From: Gemmatimonadota bacterium
Lineage (GTDB): Bacteria; Gemmatimonadota; Gemmatimonadetes; Gemmatimonadales; Gemmatimonadaceae
Assembly: GCA_027622655.1 (NCBI GenBank)
Contig: JAQBYI010000025.1
Span: 1-48,395 of the forward strand
Direction: 5' to 3'
Length of the DNA stretch: 48,395 nt
Notes under the pieces: generated by a model
Database searches by the model: none
Told to the model about the DNA's origin: nothing
The model's input: the letters and a program-made list of their open reading frames with translations, nothing else
Position numbers and translations under genes: made by a program
In this document: in pieces, positions 18,432 to 21,860 of the stretch
Layout of the letters: every line of letters begins with the position of its first letter
Numbering within the stretch: position 1 is the first letter of the stretch

Positions 18432-18818
18432 CTACCGTACCGGCCGCCGGAATCTGTGCGCAACGAGAAACGTTGATCCATCGCGCGCTCCGCTCTCGGC
18501 GACTGTGACGCCCATATCCATCACTTCCCAGCCATTCAGCTTGGTCACGAATTCAGACATCGGGAGCTCGCCCTGACCAAACCGGCCCAGCGCAGCGCGT
18601 ATGAGCGTCTCGAGCGGCTCGTCCTTGGCGATATCGAACGCGACGGCGTCCCAGAGCGCCTCGAACTGGACGCGCAGCGTTACGCGTTCCGGCCCGTCAC
18701 CTCCGACGCGCACGACAACGCCGCGCGGCGTGCGCAGCGCCGTGACGAACGGCCGCGCTTTCGCAACGGTGGCGCTACCGGTAGCTCCACGCGCCGCCCC
18801 GGTCTTGGCGGCACTCAC
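18432..18818 (-). CDS. Putative ubiquitin-fold (EsaB/YukD-like) small protein
   Basis: 128 aa, no confident family. After a basic Ala/Gly-rich tail (1-25), residues about 30-125 read as beta-beta-alpha-beta-beta. A Thr/Val strand (ERVTLRVQF) and the helix entry KDEPLETLIRAALGRF are followed by NGWEVM and by TVAESGARDGSTFLVAHR, the closing turn typical of ubiquitin-like beta-grasp proteins such as YukD/EsaB. There is no C-terminal Gly-Gly, so conjugation is unlikely. GTGA overlap with the 113-aa gene upstream and, through it, the GAF protein indicates a coupled three-gene unit. Fold assignment is inference and moderate to low in confidence. Confidence 0.7.
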   Translation of the reverse strand: MSAAKTGAARGATGSATVAKARPFVTALRTPRGVVVRVGGDGPERVTLRVQFEALWDAVAFDIAKDEPLETLIRAALGRFGQGELPMSEFVTKLNGWEVMDMGVTVAESGARDGSTFLVAHRFRRPVR

Positions 18819-19156
18819 GACGCGGCTCCTGCACCGGCCCCGGCACCAGCCCCGGCACCAGCCCCAGCAGCCGGGGGCAGCGATGAGAGGAACAGCGCCA
18901 CCTGCTGGTCGAACATGTACGACGATGCGTTGACGGCCGTGTCGCTCGGATTTCCCGCGGCAGCTGCCACACCGATCACGATCTCCTCACCGCCCATGCC
19001 CCGCAGCGAAACGTGAGCAGGTCCTTCCTGCTCGATGAACGCCGCGTATATGCCGTTCTGTCGCGAAAAGAACTCGCGCGCCGCACCGAGTACCTGCGAA
19101 CCGGCCATTGAGGTCGTCGCGGTTTGCAGCGTGCGATTGCGCTGGATGTGCGTCAC
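18815..19156 (-). CDS. Small protein of unknown function in the GAF-protein operon
   Basis: 113 aa, not recognised. A helix (GSQVLGAAREFFSRQ) is followed by about three strands (YAAFIEQEG, AHVSLRGM, EEIVIGVAAA), a second helix (YMFDQQVALFLSSLPP) and an Ala/Gly repeat tail encoded by 12-bp tandem repeats (18829-18885). Cytoplasmic by composition. It starts in a GTGA overlap with the GAF gene and ends in a GTGA overlap with the putative ubiquitin-fold gene, so stoichiometric coexpression of all three is likely. Confidence 0.7.
   Translation of the reverse strand: MTHIQRNRTLQTATTSMAGSQVLGAAREFFSRQNGIYAAFIEQEGPAHVSLRGMGGEEIVIGVAAAAGNPSDTAVNASSYMFDQQVALFLSSLPPAAGAGAGAGAGAGAGAAS
18829..18885 (+). 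repeat. 12-bp tandem repeats encoding an Ala/Gly tail
   Basis: Repeats of GGCACCAGCCCC and close variants at the 3' end of the 113-aa gene encode alternating Gly-Ala residues (AGAGAGAGAG). This is a likely length-variable disordered tail. Confidence 0.75.
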
Positions 19157-20358
19157 TCAGTTTCTCCGTGTCGAATCGGTTCGGTCCCACGTTCCTGTGC
19201 GCCGATCGGCAGTGAAAACACCACCGTCGCCACTCCACCCTTCGCGTCCTCAACGAGCTCCGCTCCCAGCATCGTCGCTAGAGCCGCAGCGAGTCGCCAC
19301 TCCACATCTTCCCCGGCGCTGCCCGGCAGCCGGTATTCAACCCGCTCTGACACCACGGCCACGGATGCGCGCACTTCGCCGGATTCGGCCACCAACAGTG
19401 CGCGCGTCAGTAATCTAGCGACGACGATGCCCACTTTATCGGCGTCGCCACGCACCACGGGCAGCGTATGGGTGGGCTCTTCGGCAATGAGATGCACACT
19501 TCCGTCGGGCGGCGCCACGGCGCGCATCGCGGCGCGCATCGCGGCGCGCAGCGGGGAGCGTGGGTCGAACGGCTCTGCGCTGGCCGTCACCCCGCCGCCT
19601 TCGATCTCAGCGATCAATGCGAGGTCGTCCACGAGCCGCCTCGCGGCATCCGCGGCCGGCGATCCGTCGGCCAGAGCGCCGAGCGCGGGCCGGATCGCGT
19701 CGGATGCAGCCGCGATGAAGTCGCGACCGACGCGCCTGGCGTGCGCGACTGCGATGTACTGCCGGTCGAGTTCGGTGAGCGCCTCGACCGCCGCGGCGTC
19801 GGCCCGTCGCATCCGATCGAGCAGGCGCGAACGCTCGGCCGCCGCCGACATCAGGTCGGCCACCAGCCGAAGCAACCCGCGGCGTTCGACCGTGAAGTCG
19901 TCCCAATTCCTGAAATAGAACGTGACGGCACCCAGGGCCGCGGTTCCCGACTGCAATGGCAGCGCCACCAGCGCGCGGAACTCGAGTTCCCGCGCCACTT
20001 CCTGCCAGTCTTCGAGATCGGGATCGGCGAAGACGTCGGGGACTTCGATCACGCGACGTTCGCTGGCCGCCTCGCCGCTCGGACCGAATCCGACGCGCAC
20101 CCGTACGTCGGCGAGCCACGGACGGAGTCGCTCGGGCCAGTTGTAGGCCGCAGCGAGGCTCATCAACTCTGATGCTCCCTCAAGCAGGTACACCGATGCA
20201 AACGACGCACCAACCACAGGCCCCACGCGGTCGAGCGCGAACTGAAACGCTTCCGCCGGCCGGTCGGCGTGCAGGAACGCGTGCACGATCTCGCGCACGG
20301 CCAGCATCTCGCGCTGCCCAGGTACGTCGACACCCGGCGGACCGAGCGGCGTGCGCAC
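19153..20358 (-). CDS. GAF-domain protein with degenerate histidine-kinase module
   Basis: 401 aa. The N-terminal GAF sensor domain (about 15-175; VGASFASVYLL, LVALPLQSGTAALGAVTFYF) is followed by a helical section matching a histidine-kinase DHp (FIAAASDAIRPALGAL then RLVDDLALIAEIE) and an ATPase-like domain (about 285-390). The phosphoacceptor position of SHELRTP is Asp220 (SDAIRP), and the N-box residues are Arg315 and Arg319 instead of Asn. The G-box glycines are not evident. It therefore looks like a pseudo-histidine kinase: a ligand sensor that signals by conformation or partner binding. GTGA-coupled to two small proteins. Alternative start is ATG 20307. Confidence 0.85.
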   Translation of the reverse strand: MRTPLGPPGVDVPGQREMLAVREIVHAFLHADRPAEAFQFALDRVGPVVGASFASVYLLEGASELMSLAAAYNWPERLRPWLADVRVRVGFGPSGEAASERRVIEVPDVFADPDLEDWQEVARELEFRALVALPLQSGTAALGAVTFYFRNWDDFTVERRGLLRLVADLMSAAAERSRLLDRMRRADAAAVEALTELDRQYIAVAHARRVGRDFIAAASDAIRPALGALADGSPAADAARRLVDDLALIAEIEGGGVTASAEPFDPRSPLRAAMRAAMRAVAPPDGSVHLIAEEPTHTLPVVRGDADKVGIVVARLLTRALLVAESGEVRASVAVVSERVEYRLPGSAGEDVEWRLAAALATMLGAELVEDAKGGVATVVFSLPIGAQERGTEPIRHGETE

Positions 20359-20415: not shown

Positions 20416-21282
20416 CTACCGCGCGGCCGCTGCAGGCGCGTACAGCTTGGCCAGAAAGGCCTTTTGCACCTGCCGCGTCACCGGGCCCGGCTTCCCGTCA
20501 CCCACCGGTTTTCCGTCCAGCGATACGACCGGTGCAACGTCAGTAGTTGTGCCGGCAATGAACAGTTCGGCCGCAGCCAGCAGCTCCTGTTGCGTAACGG
20601 GCACTTCGGAAACTCGCACTCCCACATCGCGCGCCGCGTCGAGCGCGTAGTGGCGCGAGACGCCGGGCAAGATGTAGTTCGACAGCGGATATGTACGCAC
20701 GACGCCGTCGATCACGGCAAAGGCGTTGGTCGCAGCGCCTTCGGTGAGCACCCCGTCGCGGATGAGGAACGCCTCGTAGGCTCCGGCCTCGTGCGCGGCC
20801 TCACGCGCGAGCACCGCACCCATCAGGTTCACCGTTTTCAGGTCGCAGCGGGTCCAACGGAAATCGGGAAACGTGATGGCCGCAATGCCGTCGTCCCGCA
20901 TCGTAGGCGACGGCGTGAACCGCGAAGCGGCTGCATACACCGTTGGCTGTGTTCCGGCCGGCGGGAAATAGTGCGTCCGCGGCGCAGAGCCACGTGTCAC
21001 CTGCAGATAGACCGTCGCTTCGCCGGATGTGAGATCGTTGTCGGCTAGCAGTCGCAGGCAGACCGCCTCGAGGCCATCGACGTCCGGCGCGCCAAACGGA
21101 ATTCGCACCTCGGACAGGCCGTGCGTCATTCGCCGTGCGTGTTCGGGCCACGCGAAGATGCTGCCCTCGATCACGCGCACGACTTCGTAAATCCCATCGC
21201 CAAATACGAATCCACGGTCGTCAACGGAAACCCTGGCTTTTTCTTTCGGGAGGTATTCGCCGTTGAGATATGCCGTCGTCAT
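20416..21282 (-). CDS. dat: D-amino-acid transaminase (class IV)
   Basis: PLP enzyme that makes D-Ala/D-Glu from 2-oxo acids, supplying peptidoglycan precursors. 288 aa from ATG 21282, which gives the family N-terminus (TTAYLNGEYLP). Family motifs: VDDRGFVFGDGIYEVVRV, VTRGSAPRTHYFP, the PLP lysine in CDLKTVNLMGAVLA, FLIRDGVLTEGAATNAF and FIAGTTTDVAPVV. The CD-K-x-N-L pattern favours D-amino-acid over branched-chain transaminases. The gene is 57 bp upstream of the GAF/pseudo-kinase gene on the same strand. An enclosing longer frame from 21333 adds an unlikely basic tail. Confidence 0.88.
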   Translation of the reverse strand: MTTAYLNGEYLPKEKARVSVDDRGFVFGDGIYEVVRVIEGSIFAWPEHARRMTHGLSEVRIPFGAPDVDGLEAVCLRLLADNDLTSGEATVYLQVTRGSAPRTHYFPPAGTQPTVYAAASRFTPSPTMRDDGIAAITFPDFRWTRCDLKTVNLMGAVLAREAAHEAGAYEAFLIRDGVLTEGAATNAFAVIDGVVRTYPLSNYILPGVSRHYALDAARDVGVRVSEVPVTQQELLAAAELFIAGTTTDVAPVVSLDGKPVGDGKPGPVTRQVQKAFLAKLYAPAAAAR

Positions 21283-21383
21283 GGTCGAAAGGTGTCCGTC
21301 CGCAACCGAAGGCGGCAAGCGGCGGCGATGCAACCGGACCCGTCGCCTTCACATTCGTACGCCTGGGCCGTCTTACGGATGAA

Positions 21384-21402
21384 CAAGCCGGTCACCGGCT
21401 TG
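21384..21402 (+). promoter_or_regulatory. Perfect 19-bp palindrome upstream of the repeat-protein gene
   Basis: CAAGCCGGT-C-ACCGGCTTG is a perfect inverted repeat (9+1+9) lying 28 bp before the ATG at 21430. The one-base centre is too tight for an RNA hairpin but suits a dimeric regulator operator. The regulator is unknown. Confidence 0.35.
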
Positions 21403-21429
21403 AACCGCCAACGTGAGGGGCAACAGATA

Positions 21430-21804
21430 ATGACTACGCGAAGAACCTTGGCTCTACTGGCAGTGGCGCTGCTCTGCGGCGCACTGGCAACTGCCGACGC
21501 GCAGGGGCGCGGCCGTGGGCAGCGTCAACGGCCCGACTCGGCTCAGCGTCAACGGCCCGATTCGGCCCAGCGTCAACGGCCCGACTCGGCCCAGCGTCAA
21601 CGGCCCGATTCGGCCCAGCGTCAGCGGCCGGACTCAGGCGCGCGTGCAGGTGAAGGACGCGGGCGGCGTGGCGGCCAGCGGCCGGACTCAGCCGGACGCC
21701 AGCGCCCGGACTCGGGCGATCGTGCGGACCGGGGACGTGGCCGCGGTGGCCGCGGGCGCGGAGGGCAGAGACCACCACCACCGCCTCCGCCGGCTCAGTC
21801 GTAG
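21430..21804 (+). CDS. Secreted Arg/Gln/Pro-rich protein with RQRPDSAQ repeats
   Basis: 124 aa, not recognised. ATG 21430 is preceded by GAGGGG and begins a clean signal peptide (TRRTLALLAVALLCGALA, cut near ADAQ); the longer frame from 21121 is rejected. The mature protein is wholly low complexity: five copies of RQRPDSAQ, then RGR/RGG-type Arg/Gly segments and a polyproline end (PPPPPPP). It is strongly basic and disordered, so a cell-surface, polyanion-binding or matrix role is possible but unproven. Convergent with the metallopeptidase gene across a strong terminator. Confidence 0.75.
   Translation: MTTRRTLALLAVALLCGALATADAQGRGRGQRQRPDSAQRQRPDSAQRQRPDSAQRQRPDSAQRQRPDSGARAGEGRGRRGGQRPDSAGRQRPDSGDRADRGRGRGGRGRGGQRPPPPPPPAQS
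21520..21639 (+). repeat. Five tandem 24-bp units encoding RQRPDSAQ
   Basis: Units of CAGCGTCAACGGCCCGACTC-GGCT at 21520, 21544, 21568, 21592 and 21616 differ mainly at synonymous third positions (GAC/GAT, GCT/GCC); the last is the most diverged. Expansion by slippage or recombination is likely, and the copy number is probably strain-variable. Confidence 0.9.
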
Positions 21805-21860
21805 GCCATAGCGTAGCCGATTCTGGCAGCCAGACAGTGTGATCGGTGTGATCGGTGTGA

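Follow-up and report, generated by a model that had tools for sequence, protein, structure and literature searches.

Gene pairs of Gemmatimonadota suggest a family of small partners of ubiquitin-fold proteins, next to a GAF kinase lineage that is losing its kinase

The window analyzed here is a 48,395-nucleotide stretch of a Gemmatimonadota genome (assembly GCA_027622655.1, contig JAQBYI010000025.1), and the genes of interest are three consecutive ones on its minus strand that, in agreement with the original prediction, overlap by 4 bp each, with GTGA at both junctions. The first gene (19153..20358) encodes a protein of 401 amino acids with a degenerate histidine-kinase half, hereinafter the GAF protein, in which GAF is the sole domain detected by Pfam (GAF_2, 1.6e-12; residues 34-173, minus-strand positions 19840..20259). 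The overlap at 19153..19156 connects it to the gene of an unclassified small protein, P113 (18815..19156), and the overlap at 18815..18818, which is indicative of translational coupling, connects P113 to the gene of P128 (18432..18818), a protein of the ubiquitin (beta-grasp) fold. In related genomes, the order of the genes is glyS, M3-like peptidase, GAF protein, P113, P128 and HDAC-family deacetylase, followed by a Ser/Thr kinase, an enolase-superfamily enzyme and priA, the genes of the GAF protein and the Ser/Thr kinase not being constant.

Several additional features were observed around these genes. A block of six genes, encoding a MoxR-type ATPase, a DUF58-like protein, a BatA-like protein, a large membrane protein, a DUF4159 protein and one more, is inserted between P128 and the deacetylase gene in L040, L049, L053, L054, L057, L059, L060 and other loci, and is located on the opposite side of P113 in L063. 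Within the window, open reading frames with tandem RQRPDSAQ repeats (21121-21811) adjoin a D-amino-acid-aminotransferase-like gene and probably encode a secreted low-complexity protein. A search with PADLOC yielded no match for the three genes or the deacetylase gene, and on these grounds, a role of the locus in anti-phage defense was rejected.

The structural model of P128 (pLDDT 86) adopts a ubiquitin fold, which bears out the beta-grasp assignment made originally for the third protein. Structural alignment with VIA-align superimposes the model on SUMO1 (1y8r_C; Z 12.2, rmsd 1.8, 84 aligned residues) and on the bacterial BilA Ubl (8tyz_B; Z 11.8, rmsd 2.0, 81 aligned residues), and the P128 profile matches the solved structure of the latter as well as polyubiquitin chains, the matches to single ubiquitin domains being weak. 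Pfam matches are weak, too, namely, to DUF2604 in 22 of the 34 P128 family members (best 8.5e-6) and to YukD in 19 (best 1.9e-4). Four residues are the same in all of 34 P128 sequences: Trp56, Lys93, Gly96 and Arg124. The window protein ends in ...TFLVAHRFRRPVR, where the final RRPVR (minus-strand positions 18435..18449) belongs to a conserved C-terminal tail that usually reads RRRRPVR; RPVR comes last in 45 of 86 loci, and close variants are found in most of the others. A terminal Gly is present in 0 of the 86 P128 sequences and therefore, judging from the sequences, covalent use of P128 by the standard route is unlikely.

The original prediction likened the C-terminus of P128 to proteins of the EsaB/YukD type, and the weak matches of 19 of the 34 members to the YukD model could indeed suggest that P128 is a component of a type VII secretion system. 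The likeness stands at the level of the fold but does not extend to the system: no WXG100 protein was found in the genome and no FtsK/EssC-type gene in the neighborhood, to which the search for EssC was confined. We give this reading next to no credence and dropped type VII secretion as a candidate.

Searches of Pfam, NCBIfam, PHROGs and PADLOC returned nothing for P113 of the window, and other members of its family produce only scattered single-member noise in Pfam. The model of P113 (mean pLDDT 87.3) has a beta-alpha-beta4-alpha topology, and its Gly/Ala-rich C-terminal tail is not conserved. Structurally, the model comes closest to KA1 domains (Z 9.7, 89 aligned residues, rmsd 2.8), with START-like and similar proteins either ranking lower or showing a high rmsd; no Foldseek match to the model fell below 1e-3, and comparison of the P113 sequence with solved structures returned weak, uninformative matches only (best E 0.016). 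A Roadblock-like identity of P113 was dropped, finding no support in either Pfam or structure. The KA1, Bet v1/START and phosphoglucomutase C-terminal domains belong to one 'TBP-like' fold class, so that the likeness of the P113 model to KA1 and START is a fold-level resemblance rather than demonstrated kinship.

The two small genes are widespread in the phylum and are almost always found together. Queries with single sequences detected P113 in 57 and P128 in 44 of 61 relatives, and profile searches of 395 genomes of the phylum detected P113 in 266 and P128 in 238, with both genes present in nearly all genomes of the order to which the window belongs. A scan of genome contigs for P113 recovered two loci only, both from Gemmatimonadota. 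In 87 of the 92 P113 loci examined, the next gene downstream is P128, and an in-frame ATGA/GTGA start overlaps the P113 stop codon by 4 bp in 84 of 86 loci, the start codons being inferred rather than mapped. The five exceptions to the pairing all come from one genus, g13 (L064, L094, L100, L103, L106), in which P128 has been lost from every genome sampled and P113 and the GAF protein gene have been kept. Because g13 keeps P113 after the loss of P128, P113 does something without P128, which tells against strict interdependence of the two proteins. Once the signal from the other neighborhood genes is removed, the residual evolutionary rates of P113 and P128 are correlated at r=0.54-0.57 in 17 genomes, compared with 0.02-0.29 for other pairs of genes, and at r=0.43 in 57 genomes, a value reached in 0 of 2000 permutations.

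Homologs of P113 are also present in other orders of the class, where they fall into two additional types, P113b and P113c. All three types are homologous by profile comparison and form coherent groups in a tree built from 97 columns, in which the deep forks are unsure. P113b has an HU-family gene on one side and moaD-moaE(-moaA) on the other, with MoaD and MoaE identified by Pfam; moaD is the next gene in 11 of 11 P113b loci, which were fetched by their match to P113. P113c immediately precedes another ubiquitin-fold gene, Ubl2, in 9 of 9 Ubl2 loci, which were fetched by a P128-like match, so that the P113c neighbor lies outside the selection. Thus, P113 travels with beta-grasp genes, given that its relatives directly precede moaD or Ubl2, and the synteny analysis extends the pairing seen in the window across the order, with equivalents in further orders of the class. 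The three types of partner differ at the C-terminus, Ubl2 with an invariant Gly, P128 with the basic tail and MoaD with GG. In the Gemmatimonadales, moaD and moaE are located elsewhere, and no P113 copy was found at the moa locus (0 of 8 loci); nor was P113b found on plasmids.

The conserved tail of Ubl2 ends in an invariant terminal Gly across L073-L081, for example, DLGHYPRFRG, and a ThiF-rhodanese E1 is encoded 5-7 kb from Ubl2 in several f7 loci, so Ubl2 is possibly a conjugatable or sulfur-carrier Ubl. In most of the loci L082-L092, a gene of the HU family stands in front of P113b, moaD and moaE, and several f7 and f9 loci have another HU gene no more than about 5 kb from P113c-Ubl2.

The position of P113b in front of moaD-moaE, together with the invariant Gly of Ubl2 in other orders and the E1 nearby in f7, could be taken to mean that P128 itself is an E1-activated ubiquitin-like modifier or sulfur carrier, with P113 as an accessory factor. 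We regard this as very improbable. No P128 ends in Gly, and no cognate E1 was detected in the P128 locus by Pfam or in the neighborhoods; the genome encodes a single ThiF, located elsewhere, as expected for MoaD alone, and its own moaD, also elsewhere, has a PPVAGG tail. With the only JAB match falling below the cut-off, conjugation of P128 was set aside as a candidate.

Another explanation is that P113 and the beta-grasp genes are co-regulated housekeeping neighbors, P113 having an independent role, such as binding a small ligand, the membrane or nucleic acid. The persistence of P113 without P128 in g13 fits this possibility, as do the HU genes directly upstream of P113b and the structural neighbors of P113, KA1 domains and START-like proteins, which bind lipids or ligands; furthermore, both the gene neighborhood and the rate co-variation can stem from shared regulation instead of binding. 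It is difficult to reconcile, however, with the presence of three separate beta-grasp families directly downstream of P113-type genes, the strict 4-bp coupling and the specificity of the rate co-variation between P113 and P128, and we consider it rather unlikely, albeit deserving of attention.

The remaining gene of the locus is that of the GAF protein. The alignment of the GAF protein comprises 57 orthologs encoded next to P113, of which L055 and L051 contain the GAF, HisKA and HATPase_c domains of Pfam, and ordinary histidine kinases are common among those elsewhere in the window's family. The window protein aligns collinearly with these canonical orthologs and shares their synteny, which identifies it as a descendant of a GAF-HisKA-HATPase_c ancestor, so that the GAF-DHp-ATPase layout described originally is valid by descent only; in the protein itself, Pfam recognizes GAF alone. 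As predicted, Asp220 (codon 19699..19701, minus strand) occupies the phosphoacceptor position, which is His in 20 of the 31 orthologs with an intact G1 box. Of the two arginines taken to replace N-box Asn residues, Arg319 (codon 19402..19404, minus strand) does so, its position being Asn in all 31, but Arg315 is uninformative and represents no lost Asn, its position being Ser in 18 of the 31 and Asn in only 4. The G1 and F boxes, on which the original prediction was silent, are deleted and G2 is unrecognizable; lacking the acceptor His, the N-box Asn and both G boxes, the kinase is catalytically dead in this genome, as had been claimed.

The five nearest relatives of the window protein (G010, G003, G008, G004, G001), with which it forms a clade, likewise lack the acceptor His and have a dead kinase throughout, so the alignment of homologs proposed at the outset as a check rules out a sequencing error as the source of the lost His. 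Mean identity within this clade is 71% for GAF and the linker vs 40% for DHp+CA and, therefore, it is the sensor that is conserved, not the kinase. In relatives of the same genus, the acceptor His is replaced by Tyr or Leu with the rest of the kinase intact; other orthologs carry Asn, Arg, Thr, Phe or Val, and in genus g35, the kinase half is missing entirely. On the tree of the GAF part, the state of the acceptor position requires 5-7 changes and the loss of the ATP site at least 2, many forks being weakly supported and the exact number of loss events accordingly uncertain. A single clade of all His-less sequences is rejected (p=9e-5, with four long rows left out), and a single clade for the loss of the ATP site gives p=0.028. 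The acceptor His has been lost more than once in this lineage, and the kinase activity of the GAF protein appears to be dispensable in the window's family.

DivL of Caulobacter is a known precedent for the replacement of the acceptor His by Tyr, with the N, G1, F and G2 boxes kept (PMC4211667). Genus relatives of the window protein in which His is replaced by Tyr and all other boxes are intact show exactly the DivL change, and the general pattern of a replaced His with the other boxes kept is found in L050, L055 and L131-L135. Conceivably, then, the GAF protein could be a pseudo-histidine kinase that was repurposed in the manner of DivL, with a dead transmitter sensing a phosphorylated response regulator. 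The window protein does not share the pattern, however, given that this protein and those closest to it have degraded motifs in DHp and the ATP-binding part as well, whereas DivL retains N, G1, F and G2, and neither Pfam nor the neighborhoods of relatives reveal a response regulator in the locus. We deem this explanation improbable.

The connection between the GAF protein and the pair is looser than that within the pair. The GAF protein gene is found beside P113-P128 only in the window's own family and is absent from this place in families f2 and f3; within its family, the overlap with P113 occurs in only 13 of 57 loci. In f2 and f3 (e.g., L032, L034, L067), a Zincin_1-like metallopeptidase gene (PF06262, 8.9e-6) takes its place, either directly or a few genes upstream of P113. 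The trio described originally is, thus, not one fixed unit: the linkage of P113 and P128 is upheld, and this pair is the core. It is quite possible, at only a little short of even chances, that the GAF protein has nothing to do with the pair, the kinase half being a decaying relic and the GAF/linker part functioning elsewhere in the cell, which would be compatible with the rarity of the overlap, the lack of the gene in f2 and f3 and the faster divergence of the kinase half than of GAF. Yet, in most family members, the gene is kept directly upstream of P113, even through the loss of the kinase half. Most likely, the GAF protein either feeds into the P113-P128 module as a lineage-specific input or is a neighbor of it, gene order being the only tie seen between them.

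The explanation we favor, to which we assign an even chance of being correct, is that P113 is a dedicated partner of ubiquitin-fold proteins, the pair forms a non-covalent adaptor complex, and the GAF protein provides a lineage-specific input. Under this scenario, P113 would be a dedicated partner of beta-grasp proteins, and translational coupling would yield P113 and P128 in similar amounts; the two proteins would then bind non-covalently, with the complex acting as an adaptor or scaffold and the conserved tail and Trp/Lys positions of P128 as candidate contacts. The window's family would have gained a GAF histidine kinase upstream of the pair; the activity of this kinase would have been dispensable and repeatedly lost, and the GAF protein encoded here could signal, if at all, only through ligand-induced binding or changes in the dimer. 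The basis of this two-gene-module explanation consists of the predicted folds, the pairing, the coupling, the rate co-variation and the repeated loss of kinase residues; from these we infer the physical complex, its adaptor role and the tie between the GAF protein and the pair. The binding-based signaling complex proposed originally remains a plausible candidate.

A bolder version, which we put forward tentatively and expect to be wrong somewhat more readily than right, is that P113 is the founder of a new family of dedicated partners, be they chaperones, gatekeepers or adaptors, for ubiquitin-fold proteins, the targets of which would be MoaD in certain lineages and, elsewhere, Ubls with or without a terminal glycine, and that the pair of the Gemmatimonadales is a core non-covalent ubiquitin-like signaling module, the sensor of which was repeatedly turned from a kinase into a binding protein. 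What appears to be new here is a family of small partners that accompany ubiquitin-fold proteins, encoded next to a kinase lineage in which the kinase is being lost. Bacterial ubiquitin-fold proteins mostly work with an E1 enzyme or within a larger machine, and a small uncharacterized family encoded directly upstream of three kinds of beta-grasp genes offers a testable handle on their conjugation-free handling; it may also expose an unrecognized factor that is involved, in some lineages, in the molybdopterin-synthase step. The GAF kinases, which grade from canonical enzymes through forms that lack the His but retain the ATP site to proteins with GAF alone, amount to a natural experiment on the origin of pseudokinases.

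Among known systems, DivL resembles the GAF protein in the His to Tyr replacement seen in kinase-intact relatives but has PAS domains instead of GAF, and the window copy, unlike DivL, is without an ATP site as well as without a known response-regulator partner. The best Pfam match of the P128 family is DUF2604 (PF10790), under the cut-off of which the window protein falls (17.4 bits vs 25). RnfH of beta- and gamma-proteobacteria, encoded with an upstream START-domain protein (RatB/RatA; Iyer et al. 2006, PMC1779556), is similar to P128 in that both are small proteins of the ubiquitin fold whose genes are accompanied by one for a protein of the helix-grip/START fold class, tentatively so in the case of P113, and in that their strongly conserved neighborhoods are devoid of E1, E2 and JAB; no RnfH Pfam match is found among the 34 P128 members, however, P113 is shorter than the START partner and closest in structure to KA1 domains, and smpB and smpA are missing from the locus. 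TmoB, RnfH and YukD were suggested to be adaptors or stability factors in a follow-up by the same authors (PMC1949818). YukD/EsaB, which belongs to type VII secretion (PMC5845737), is, like P128, a stand-alone ubiquitin fold without a diglycine tail, to which P128 shows a weak profile match, but P128 has no secretion-system genes around it and has another partner and another conserved tail. The Bil-type bacterial ubiquitination system differs in its E1-E2-DUB operon and conjugatable terminus, both of which P128 lacks, and is similar in the fold of the BilA Ubl (8tyz/8tyx, Z 11.8). P128 differs from MoaD, too, in lacking the GG tail, and the moaD and moaE genes of its own genome are separate and without a P113 copy, but in other orders, a P113 homolog lies directly upstream of moaD, just as P113 lies upstream of P128.
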